Positions 7,383 through 9,574 of a DNA stretch of 64,000 bases are shown here, piece by piece. A program made the translations under genes and the position numbers. Location: positions 689,501 to 753,500 of the forward strand of contig NZ_FOEJ01000001.1 of the NCBI RefSeq assembly GCF_900110705.1, written 5' to 3'. Numbering within the stretch: the first letter of the stretch is position 1; each line of letters begins with the position of its first letter. The DNA is from Loktanella sp. DSM 29012. Lineage in GTDB: Bacteria; Pseudomonadota; Alphaproteobacteria; Rhodobacterales; Rhodobacteraceae. The notes below the pieces were generated by a model. It had not been told where the DNA came from, did no database searches, and saw only the letters and a list, made by a program, of their open reading frames with translations.

Positions 7383-7410
7383 AAAAGGCCGGGCTGATGC
7401 CCGGCCTTTT
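7383..7410 (-). terminator. Intrinsic terminator of sat/cysC
   Basis: A perfect 12-bp stem, AAAAGGCCGGGC with GCCCGGCCTTTT around a TGAT loop, lies 23 bases after the sat/cysC stop. On the minus strand it ends in a T run; because the stem is symmetric it could also stop plus-strand transcription. Confidence 0.9.
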
Positions 7411-7432: not shown

Positions 7433-9514
7433 CTAGCCGCTGATCAGGCCCATGGATTCCAGCTTCAGAATGACCTGATGCGCGCAGTTGTCGACATCCT
7501 GTCCTTCGGTATCCAGCCGCAGTTCGGGGTCCTTCGGAACGTCATAGGGGTCTGAAATTCCGGTGAATTCCTTGATCTTACCTTCGCGTGCCAGCTTGTA
7601 CAGGCCCTTGCGGTCGCGGCGCTCGCATTCCTCGATCGAGGTCGCGACGTGCACTTCGATGAATGCGCCGAAATCCTCGATCTCTTCACGCACCGCGCGG
7701 CGGGTCGTGGCGTAGGGTGCAATCGGGGCACAGATGGCGATCCCGCCGTTCTTGGTGATCTCGGAGGCGACGTAGCCGATGCGGCGGATGTTCAGGTCGC
7801 GGTGTTCCTTGGAAAAGCCCAGTTCCGACGACAGGTTCTTGCGCACGATGTCACCGTCCAGCAACGTGACCGGGCGGCCACCCATTTCCATCAGCTTGAC
7901 CATCAGCGCGTTGGCGATGGTGGATTTGCCCGAACCGGAGAAGCCGGTGAAGAACACAGTAAAGCCCTGCTTGGACCGCGCTGGTTTCGTGCGGCGCAGC
8001 TCTTCAACGACCTGCGGAAAGCTGAACCATTCCGGGATTTCCAGGCCCTCTTGCAGGCGGCGGCGCAATTCGGTGCCGGAAATGTTCAGGATCGTGACGT
8101 TGTCGCGGTCCTCGATTTCGTCTGCGGGCTCGTATTGGGCGCGTTCCTGCACATAAACCATGTGTTTGAAATCGACCATTTCGATACCCATTTCCTCTTG
8201 ATGCTCGCGGAACAGGTCCTGCGCATCGTAGGGGCCGTAGAAATCGTCACCGGCAGAGTTCTTGCCCGGGCCTGCGTGGTCGCGGCCGACGATGAAATGG
8301 GTGCAGCCGTGGTTCTTGCGGATCAGCCCGTGCCAGACGGCCTCGCGCGGACCGGCCATGCGCATCGCGAGGTTCAGCAGGGACATGGTGGTCGTTGACG
8401 GCTGATACTGGTCCAGAACCGCCTCGTAGCAGCGCACGCGGGTAAAGTGATCAACGTCGCCCGGCTTGGTCAGGCCCACGACGGGGTGGATCAGCAGGTT
8501 GGCCTGTGCCCCCTTGGCGGCGCGGAAGGTCAGTTCCTGATGCGCGCGGTGCAGCGGGTTGCGGGTCTGGAACGCCACGACCTTGCGCCAGCCCAGCTTG
8601 CGGAAATAGGCGCGCAATTCGTTGGGCGTGTCGCGGCGGGCGCGGAAATCGTAATGCACCGGCTGCTGGATGCCGGTCACCGGGCCGCCCAGATAGACGT
8701 TGCCTGCGGTGTTGTGCAGATAGTTGACGGCGGGGTGCGCGGAATCGTCGGCGCCAAAGACCATCTCGGCCTCGCGGGCCTTGTTCGGCACCCATTTGTC
8801 CGTAACCGTCATGGTCGCAAGGATTACGCCTTCCTGGTCGCGCAGTGCGATGTCTTGACCCAGTTCGATCGTGTCGGCAAAGGCGTCAGTCACGTCCAGC
8901 GTGATCGGAATGGGCCACAGGTGGCCGTCTGCGGTGCGCATATTTTCCACGACACCGTTGTAATCTGCCTCGGACAGGAACCCCTTGAGCGGGTTGAAGC
9001 CACCGTTCATCAGCAGTTCCAGATCGCAGATCTGGCGTGGCGTCAGGTCGTGGCTGGTCAGATTCCCGGCCTCATGCTTCATCTTTTGTGCGCTCTCGAA
9101 CGACACATATAGCTCTGGGATGGGGGCAAGGTTGTTTTGCATCATTTGGGTCCTGTGGGTGGTTGGAATGTAGCCGCTGGTCGTTCCGGTCAGTTCGGCA
9201 TGAAGGGCGTCGTATTCAGCGAATTTTCGGGCAAGGAATTGATCCCTCAACCGCACCATTTCGGCTGCCCCGCGATGGGTCAGCACATAGGAAAACCGCT
9301 GTCGCCGGTCGGCGCTGGCACGGTCGCTGATCTGGATGAATCCGGCGGCAACCGCCGACTTGAGCAATGCGTTCAAACGTCCAAGCGACACCCCAAGCGC
9401 CACAGCCGTCGCACGTTGCGACGCCTCGGGCGCAAGGTTGACTTGACGCAGCAGCCGAAACAGGGCGACCTCTTCGTCAGATATGGGTGCTATGGTCTGG
9501 ACGGCCACGATCAC
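7433..9514 (-). CDS. Winged-helix (MarR/EPS type) - ATP sulfurylase - APS kinase
   Basis: One uninterrupted 693-codon frame. Residues about 10-110 match the MarR-family EPS-associated regulator pattern (VSLGRLNALLKSAVAAGFI, YVLTHRGAAEM, FLARKFAEYDALHAEL). Residues 125-515 are ATP sulfurylase, with the nucleotide motif QTRNPLHRAH at 316-325. Residues 517-693 are APS kinase, with P-loop GFSGSGKS at 524-531. The enzymes convert sulfate to APS then PAPS. The usual Rhodobacteraceae enzyme is about 570 residues and starts at MQNNLAPIPELYVSFESAQK; here ATGs at 9145 and 9142 have AGGA just upstream, so a normal-length enzyme can be made from an internal start as well as, or instead of, a fusion. The full-length start is GTG at 9514 with a poor ribosome site. 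Faces a palindromic region. Confidence 0.88.
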   Translation of the reverse strand: MIVAVQTIAPISDEEVALFRLLRQVNLAPEASQRATAVALGVSLGRLNALLKSAVAAGFIQISDRASADRRQRFSYVLTHRGAAEMVRLRDQFLARKFAEYDALHAELTGTTSGYIPTTHRTQMMQNNLAPIPELYVSFESAQKMKHEAGNLTSHDLTPRQICDLELLMNGGFNPLKGFLSEADYNGVVENMRTADGHLWPIPITLDVTDAFADTIELGQDIALRDQEGVILATMTVTDKWVPNKAREAEMVFGADDSAHPAVNYLHNTAGNVYLGGPVTGIQQPVHYDFRARRDTPNELRAYFRKLGWRKVVAFQTRNPLHRAHQELTFRAAKGAQANLLIHPVVGLTKPGDVDHFTRVRCYEAVLDQYQPSTTTMSLLNLAMRMAGPREAVWHGLIRKNHGCTHFIVGRDHAGPGKNSAGDDFYGPYDAQDLFREHQEEMGIEMVDFKHMVYVQERAQYEPADEIEDRDNVTILNISGTELRRRLQEGLEIPEWFSFPQVVEELRRTKPARSKQGFTVFFTGFSGSGKSTIANALMVKLMEMGGRPVTLLDGDIVRKNLSSELGFSKEHRDLNIRRIGYVASEITKNGGIAICAPIAPYATTRRAVREEIEDFGAFIEVHVATSIEECERRDRKGLYKLAREGKIKEFTGISDPYDVPKDPELRLDTEGQDVDNCAHQVILKLESMGLISG

Positions 9515-9523
9515 GACTCAATC

Positions 9524-9574
9524 TTTGTTCACGCGTGAACGCATACAGGAAAATTGCGTTCACAAAAGAACAAA
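9524..9574. promoter_or_regulatory. Nested palindromic operator upstream of winged-helix/sat/cysC
   Basis: Two inverted copies of TTTGTTC-n4-GTGAACGCA (plus strand 9524-9543, minus strand 9574-9555). Each copy contains a dyad: GTTCACGCGTGAAC (9527-9540, a perfect 14-bp palindrome) and GTTCACAAAAGAAC (9558-9571). The two dyads start 31 bp apart, about three helical turns. The array ends 10 bases before the GTG start at 9514. It is well placed as the binding site of the winged-helix domain encoded immediately downstream; that assignment is inference. Confidence 0.7.

Follow-up and report, generated by a model that had tools for sequence, protein, structure and literature searches.

Within the 64,000-nucleotide stretch of the Loktanella sp. 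DSM 29012 genome analysed here (hereafter, the window), a MarR-type winged helix runs in one open frame into an ATP sulfurylase and an APS kinase. This raises the question of what such a gene makes and what a DNA-binding domain would do on a sulfate-activating enzyme. A previous sequence-only reading had suggested either a PAPS-producing enzyme able to bind DNA or a translational restart by which this one gene yields a tagged form and a plain enzyme, with exopolysaccharide (EPS) control as a natural rationale. The relevant parts of the frame are the following.

7433..9514, minus strand: fused open frame (MarR-type winged helix, linker, ATP sulfurylase, APS kinase), from translation and profiles; long product of 693 residues from GTG 9514, or of 691 residues from GTG 9508
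9188..9472, minus strand: winged-helix DNA-binding domain with a long C-terminal (dimerisation-type) helix, residues about 15–109
9143..9187, minus strand: conserved linker with a putative internal ribosome-binding site, translated in frame as judged from codon-position divergence
7433..9142, minus strand: predicted plain bifunctional Sat-CysC product, 569 residues, 63.9 kDa, from the PRK05537 profile

On translation, 7433–9514 is a single frame with zero stops, and the computed mass of the long form is 77.3–77.5 kDa. Residues 122–692 belong to PRK05537 (bifunctional Sat/CysC), which they match with 1035.3 bits against an NCBIfam cut-off of 669, and the Pfam domains PUA_2, ATP-sulfurylase and APS_kinase are all detected. 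The catalytic motifs, which we take to be QxRNPxHxxH, GRDHAG and the P-loop GxSGSGKS, are intact in the translation (QTRNPLHRAH, GRDHAG and GFSGSGKST, respectively). PDB matches to the solved chains 1i2d and 1m8p, both presumably ATP sulfurylases of fungal origin, and 2gks span residues 145–691 of the fused product. Judged by profile, the enzyme part of the fusion is intact, and the fused gene is the sole Sat-CysC match in the host genome. At the other end of the protein, TIGR04176 (MarR_EPS) aligns to residues 15–109 with 73.5 bits, or 77.6 bits in the genome-wide profile search, in both cases below the NCBIfam cut-off of 88. Note that a strong terminator-like hairpin lies directly downstream of the gene, at window positions 7383–7410; it was reported on the plus strand with a T-run, and the minus-strand sequence likewise ends in a T run.

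AlphaFold2 (AF2) gives a good model of the winged helix (mean pLDDT 86); helices are predicted at residues 13–27, 33–40, 44–56 and 80–109 and strands at residues 60–64 and 74–78, the C-terminal helix being single and long. This predicted winged helix with a helical dimerisation part conforms to the MarR superfamily fold: ranks 1–19 of the best 50 Foldseek matches are MarR-type (E-values 3e-5 to 7e-4; for a few of these ranks the label is our assumption), and Sso10a-2 comes at rank 20. A search of the PDB with the winged-helix sequence profile gave no match. The AF2 model of the full-length protein is poor (mean pLDDT 69, with the enzyme part poorly modelled and residues 120–135 of low confidence), so that no domain–domain contact can be claimed from it. 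The winged helix is minimal and seems to lack the usual MarR ligand pocket; any signal would enter through the enzyme.

That the fusion arose by chance or through a sequencing error is ruled out by its conservation. A search within the family gave a match in 279 of 295 genomes; from at least 149 matches listed, we chose 90 loci, namely every listed match covering the winged helix, together with further matches that showed long frames or stops. Fifty-seven of them carry the fusion with no intervening stop and 33 code for the plain enzyme; the other 59 listed matches align solely from residue 112 or later. Scanning named genomes with a winged-helix alignment yielded 309 relatives; of the best 80 of these, which are Rhodobacteraceae loci, 79 are fused without a stop (76 parsed by pattern and three by reading), and the 80th (L112) is interrupted by a contig end yet has the same linker. 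At the class level (385 genomes, E-value 1e-8), frames of about 694 residues were matched solely in two genomes of Loktanella's own family, winged-helix matches elsewhere sitting in shorter frames. The winged helix is 100% identical in a Loktanella sp. 3ANDIMAR09 record. The earlier claim that an unbroken frame joins a regulator domain to Sat-CysC is thus upheld, with no stop here and none inside 119 non-redundant fused homologues. The comparison with close relatives that had been suggested as a check returned loci that are either fused or devoid of the domain, except for one decayed remnant (L083, see below), and the pattern named in advance as the mark of a spurious fusion, a conserved stop between the domains, was found in none of the loci read.

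Two elements of the linker define a candidate second start.

9151..9154, minus strand: AGGA, putative internal Shine-Dalgarno, occupying −12 to −9 relative to the internal start, each base conserved
9140..9142, minus strand: putative internal start codon of the plain enzyme, ATG here (ATG in 103, GTG in 14 and TTG in 1 of 118 genes)

We compared these elements in a non-redundant set of 119 fused genes (less than 95% nucleotide identity, kept from 133), 118 rows of which were anchored. AGGA lies exactly 12 nt 5′ of an internal ATG, GTG or TTG in 118 of the 119 genes, and its four bases are conserved, in order, in 117 (A), 118 (G), 118 (G) and 118 (A) of the 118 anchored genes. The arginine column of the linker uses AGG in 117 of 118 rows, against 12% AGG or less in the other 47 conserved arginine columns; the row without arginine in that column, L040, is out of register because of an indel, and anchoring it on its start places AGG at −12. 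In every one of the 118 anchored rows AGG is followed by an A, which opens a codon for T, S, N, M or I, and the start position is occupied solely by Met (ATG), Val (GTG) or Leu (TTG), with no other Val codon. In the 50 pattern-parsed fused family genes, AGG stands exactly 12 nt before the internal start without exception and is rare otherwise (21 of 2610 other Arg codons). Six of the remaining seven fused family genes also have AGG, the counter-example being L052, where CGG is used and CGGA replaces AGGA through loss of the first A. AGG is likewise found at −12 in all 76 parsed named loci, in L112 and in three loci read later.

Codon-position divergence in the helix-and-linker columns (0.24/0.12/0.54) indicates that translation continues in frame through the linker, up to the internal start, the corresponding values for the winged helix being 0.27/0.19/0.59. 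Since third positions differ in 54% of comparisons, conservation of the internal site is not due to the youth of the genes. Mean anti-Shine-Dalgarno pairing amounts to −4.5 kcal/mol at the internal start, −2.2 kcal/mol at the assumed upstream start and −1.8 kcal/mol at 1787 other in-frame Met codons, and in 115 of 117 genes the internal start pairs more strongly than the assumed upstream one. Altogether, internal restart has strong comparative support, and the conservation pattern indicates that the internal start is under selection at the nucleotide level. The proposal that one gene yields a tagged form as well as the plain enzyme is therefore strengthened by nucleotide conservation of the internal start and its Shine-Dalgarno across the 119 genes. 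Of the two ATGs (9145 and 9142) that had been put forward with AGGA upstream, both are present, with AGGA at 9154–9151, and conservation singles out 9142. Gene annotations reading 'bifunctional sulfate adenylyltransferase/adenylylsulfate kinase' may consequently need two starts.

Upstream of the frame, the comparison brought out three further elements.

9517..9519, minus strand: GAG, putative weak Shine-Dalgarno of the upstream start, within a conserved TTGAG
9527..9540, minus strand: candidate operator GTTCACGCGTGAAC, a perfect palindrome, from the GTTCA-N4-TGAAC comparison
9558..9571, minus strand: second, imperfect copy of the palindrome GTTCTTTTGTGAAC, 31 bp upstream, from the GTTC-N6-GAAC comparison

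GTTCA-N4-TGAAC is present just upstream of the gene in 55 of 57 fused family loci versus none of the 33 plain ones, and it was not found anywhere else in these 33 loci either. The two fused family loci without the exact palindrome are L007, which has a variant (GTTCG...), and L009, which is interrupted by a contig end; among parsed named fused loci, 74 of 76 carry it, the exceptions being L157 and L162. Of 117 fused genes, 22, this one among them, have a second GTTC-N6-GAAC in the 90 nt upstream, with a spacing that is most often 32 bp. When 117 genes are aligned on the palindrome, CTTT stands at −29 to −26 and ATG(C/T)G runs into the first base of the palindrome, which is followed by TTGAG, occupying +19 to +23 relative to the start of the operator, and then by the start codon. 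CTTT and ATG(C/T)G presumably form a −35/−10 pair, the palindrome covering the end of the −10 element and the transcription start; this placement is drawn from conservation, as a sigma-70 scan gave no consensus promoter. Counted from the first base of the palindrome, the start codons of the relatives, assumed by position, follow at a median distance of 33 nt, which makes GTG 9508 a likelier start than GTG 9514. Its position and its co-occurrence with the fused domain suggest that the palindrome is the operator of its own gene.

Does the palindrome have other targets? The Loktanella genome contains six exact copies, versus one match for a reversed control pattern, and the five further copies read as inside coding frames (L096 by eye only), none of which was recognised as an EPS gene. 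With a stricter 15-mer, we found 56 distinct sites in 26 fused genomes, 23 at the fused gene and 33 elsewhere, with one to five sites per genome; the fused gene is the only site in 7 of the 26. Three genomes (G165, G081 and G238) have no 15-mer at the fused gene, L007 of G081 being the locus with the variant palindrome. All 33 other sites were inspected: 32 fall within open frames of 60 aa or longer, those of L203, L204, L212 and L226 being covered solely by frames of 88–150 aa, and at L223 no frame reaching 60 aa covers the site. These last five sites are each confined to a single genome. Three groups of sites do recur: L192/L202/L211/L225, whose common frame we take to be infC, L196/L199 (ABC ATPase-like) and L220/L236 (nitrite-reductase-like). 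Since the site lies in each case inside a frame shared between genomes, these groups are read as coding. No second non-coding target common to the fused genomes was found with the 15-mer in the 26 genomes, in which a longer 18-mer pattern had no match. A regulon beyond sat was set aside on account of these own-genome copies in coding frames and of the lack of a shared non-coding site; further targets may exist, since most fused genomes contain extra palindromes.

The plain loci show what the locus looks like without the domain. The fused-domain profile detected no separate upstream regulator gene in the 33 of them (about 2 kb upstream or less), except for the remnant in L083. In this locus, from MAG G157, the regulator part has decayed to a weak profile match with stops in the frame and the palindrome is absent from the 4.2 kb examined, with AGGA-N8-ATG and the enzyme frame intact; L083 fits the model proposed below, being a naturally occurring internal start without an intact regulator in front of it, with the caveat that it comes from a single, incomplete MAG. 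A BLAST match starting from residue 55 on the Roseobacter litoralis plasmid pRLO149_63 (L091) turned out to be a plain enzyme when the locus was read. This sat-cysC lies near dTDP-rhamnose, galE and glycosyltransferase genes and may be a separate, polysaccharide-linked copy. In G006, of the same genus as Loktanella, a plain enzyme immediately follows trxB, and both winged helix and palindrome are missing (L071/L185). More generally, trxB lies within 400 nt of the enzyme start in 14 of the 33 plain loci; as trxB also adjoins there, the regulator module has been gained or lost in place, at least in these 14. A Sat-CysC tree built by a quick method is poorly resolved, with 21 label changes, at least four of them forced by starred branches, and it gives no separation of repeated loss from repeated gain; a single origin of the fusion was accordingly not retained. 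The distribution indicates that the winged-helix module is dispensable in many members of the family.

The neighbourhood of the fused gene is also conserved: 76 of the 80 named loci have trxB upstream in the same orientation, and 70 have an AsnC-type gene upstream. Here too the gene adjoins trxB and an AsnC-type gene, a setting distinct from the stand-alone, EPS-cluster one expected of MarR_EPS regulators. Stand-alone relatives of the winged helix were examined at seven loci (L178–L184) in four other alphaproteobacterial families. Five of the seven are separate regulator frames that score 56–92 bits with the fused-domain profile and adjoin NusG-like or polysaccharide-type genes (neighbours judged by eye), so that 'EPS' would denote the ancestry of the domain rather than its role here. 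A NusG/RfaH-like frame is found near the stand-alone winged helix in six of these seven loci, possibly as part of a regulator–antiterminator pair. As regards sulfur metabolism, the sole PF01507 match over the cut-off in the host genome is a CysH-like protein (L186, contig C13), whose gene lies beside sulfite-reductase-like and ferredoxin-reductase-like frames (identified by eye). This protein has CC...CxPC cysteine pairs, which we take to be associated with APS reductases. If it is one, PAPS is unneeded for sulfate reduction in this organism and may serve sulfation or signalling.

We propose, with a probability of roughly three in four, that one conserved Rhodobacteraceae gene gives two products, a tagged form that represses its own promoter and a plain enzyme that predominates. 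A weak upstream start would yield the winged-helix–Sat-CysC protein, about 77 kDa, as the minor form, and the internal ribosome-binding site in the linker would yield the plain 569-residue Sat-CysC, 64 kDa, probably as the major product. The tagged form would dimerise, bind GTTCA-N4-TGAAC where it overlaps the −10/start region and repress the promoter, so that sulfate-activating capacity would limit its own synthesis. Because the winged helix is minimal, the signal is presumably read by the enzyme part, either as its oligomeric state or as its occupancy by APS, PAPS or ATP. Autorepression would explain why domain and palindrome are present together, why both are absent from plain loci and why there is no shared second target; the frame may have remained without a stop because a regulator made separately would no longer be tied to the enzyme. 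In a more specific and tentative version, which we hold at somewhat less than even odds, tagged and plain subunits form mixed Sat-CysC oligomers in a ratio fixed by the two competing starts, sense APS/PAPS and switch their own promoter only. Sulfate activation would then be its own transcription factor, with APS/PAPS sensed via the catalytic or APS-kinase sites, in a one-gene feedback loop where the enzyme is the sensor and the internal ribosome-binding site sets the loop gain.

Other accounts of the same gene have to be weighed against this proposal. If the long fusion were the sole product, the AGGA–ATG of the linker would reflect a need of the protein for Arg ... Met, and the frame is indeed continuous and the linker conserved as protein. 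We regard this as highly improbable in view of the codons used: 117 of 118 rows use the rare AGG for this Arg, a codon that accounts for 21 of the 2610 Arg codons at other positions of 50 fused genes, the Met is swapped solely for Val as GTG or Leu as TTG, and the amino acid after this Arg changes from gene to gene although its codon always begins with A. Conversely, the plain enzyme could be the only product made in quantity, with the upstream part as a decaying relic or a translational-coupling leader. Both the apparent strength of the internal site, greater than that of the assumed upstream site in 115 of 117 genes, and the decay seen in L083 would suit this account, which is nevertheless very unlikely given that the winged helix evolves under protein-level constraint with zero stops in 119 genes and that the palindrome is kept with the domain and found in no locus lacking it.

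A different regulator might bind the palindrome, the winged helix acting elsewhere or merely tethering the enzyme to the nucleoid. Binding of the palindrome by the winged helix is deduced from sequence, 33 further strict-pattern sites exist in the 26 fused genomes, and the Loktanella genome itself has six palindromes against a single control match. This account is unlikely all the same, considering that site and domain co-occur at one locus (55/57 vs 0/33), that any recurrence of the 33 other sites between genomes is confined to shared open frames and that a palindrome suits a homodimeric winged helix. Finally, the idea that the fusion couples sulfate activation to EPS control, for example through sulfated EPS, is in our view the least probable of these alternatives and we do not retain the earlier rationale built on it. 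It could draw on the NusG-like and polysaccharide-type neighbours of the stand-alone relatives in other families, on the plain plasmid-borne sat-cysC of Roseobacter litoralis, which sits among rfb and glycosyltransferase genes, and on a Sulfotransfer_3 match in the host genome. The domain, however, scores below the MarR_EPS cut-off, the five other own-genome palindromes read as inside coding frames with no recognised EPS gene among them, the 26 genomes share no non-coding second palindrome, and the usual upstream neighbours are trxB and the AsnC-type gene.

Marine Rhodobacteraceae are important in the ocean sulfur cycle, and autorepression by the tagged form, if confirmed, would bear on the regulation of sulfate assimilation in these bacteria. 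It would also represent a compact and widespread feedback design, in which one gene gives an enzyme and the same enzyme with an apparent repressor attached, acting on one consistent target site. In a full-text literature search, whose coverage lies largely outside subscription papers, nothing on a winged helix–Sat-CysC fusion appeared among the titles and abstract openings listed.

How does this gene compare with known systems? Its whole enzyme part is the same as PRK05537 Sat/CysC, represented by the solved chains 1i2d, 1m8p and 2gks; these chains have no match to the winged helix, which the fusion adds and which the internal start would remove again to restore the plain enzyme. MarR_EPS (TIGR04176) regulators have a related winged helix, but the known ones are stand-alone, whereas this one is fused to an enzyme and lies outside an EPS neighbourhood. 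PutA, BirA and NadR are trigger enzymes or enzyme–regulator fusions, and CheA and IF2 are examples of in-frame alternative-start proteoform pairs. In trigger enzymes and enzyme–regulator fusions, BzdR included, a DNA-binding domain is joined through a linker to a metabolic (kinase-type) domain, as here; in BzdR the enzyme activity is reported to have been lost (PMC3602430), whereas here profile matching indicates an intact enzyme, a regulator-free version of which is apparently encoded by the gene as well. Bacterial N-terminal proteoform pairs arise from in-frame alternative starts in one gene (PMC11005335), and two in-frame starts in one gene are also what we find. The choice of start would here add a DNA-binding domain to a metabolic enzyme or remove it, across much of one family. 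The PAPS reductase of Tuber melanosporum is reported to be a sulfate-assimilation enzyme moonlighting with a transcriptional role (PMC4848566). It is a different enzyme, from a fungus, and uses a C-terminal activation peptide, where the Rhodobacteraceae enzyme would rely on a winged helix.
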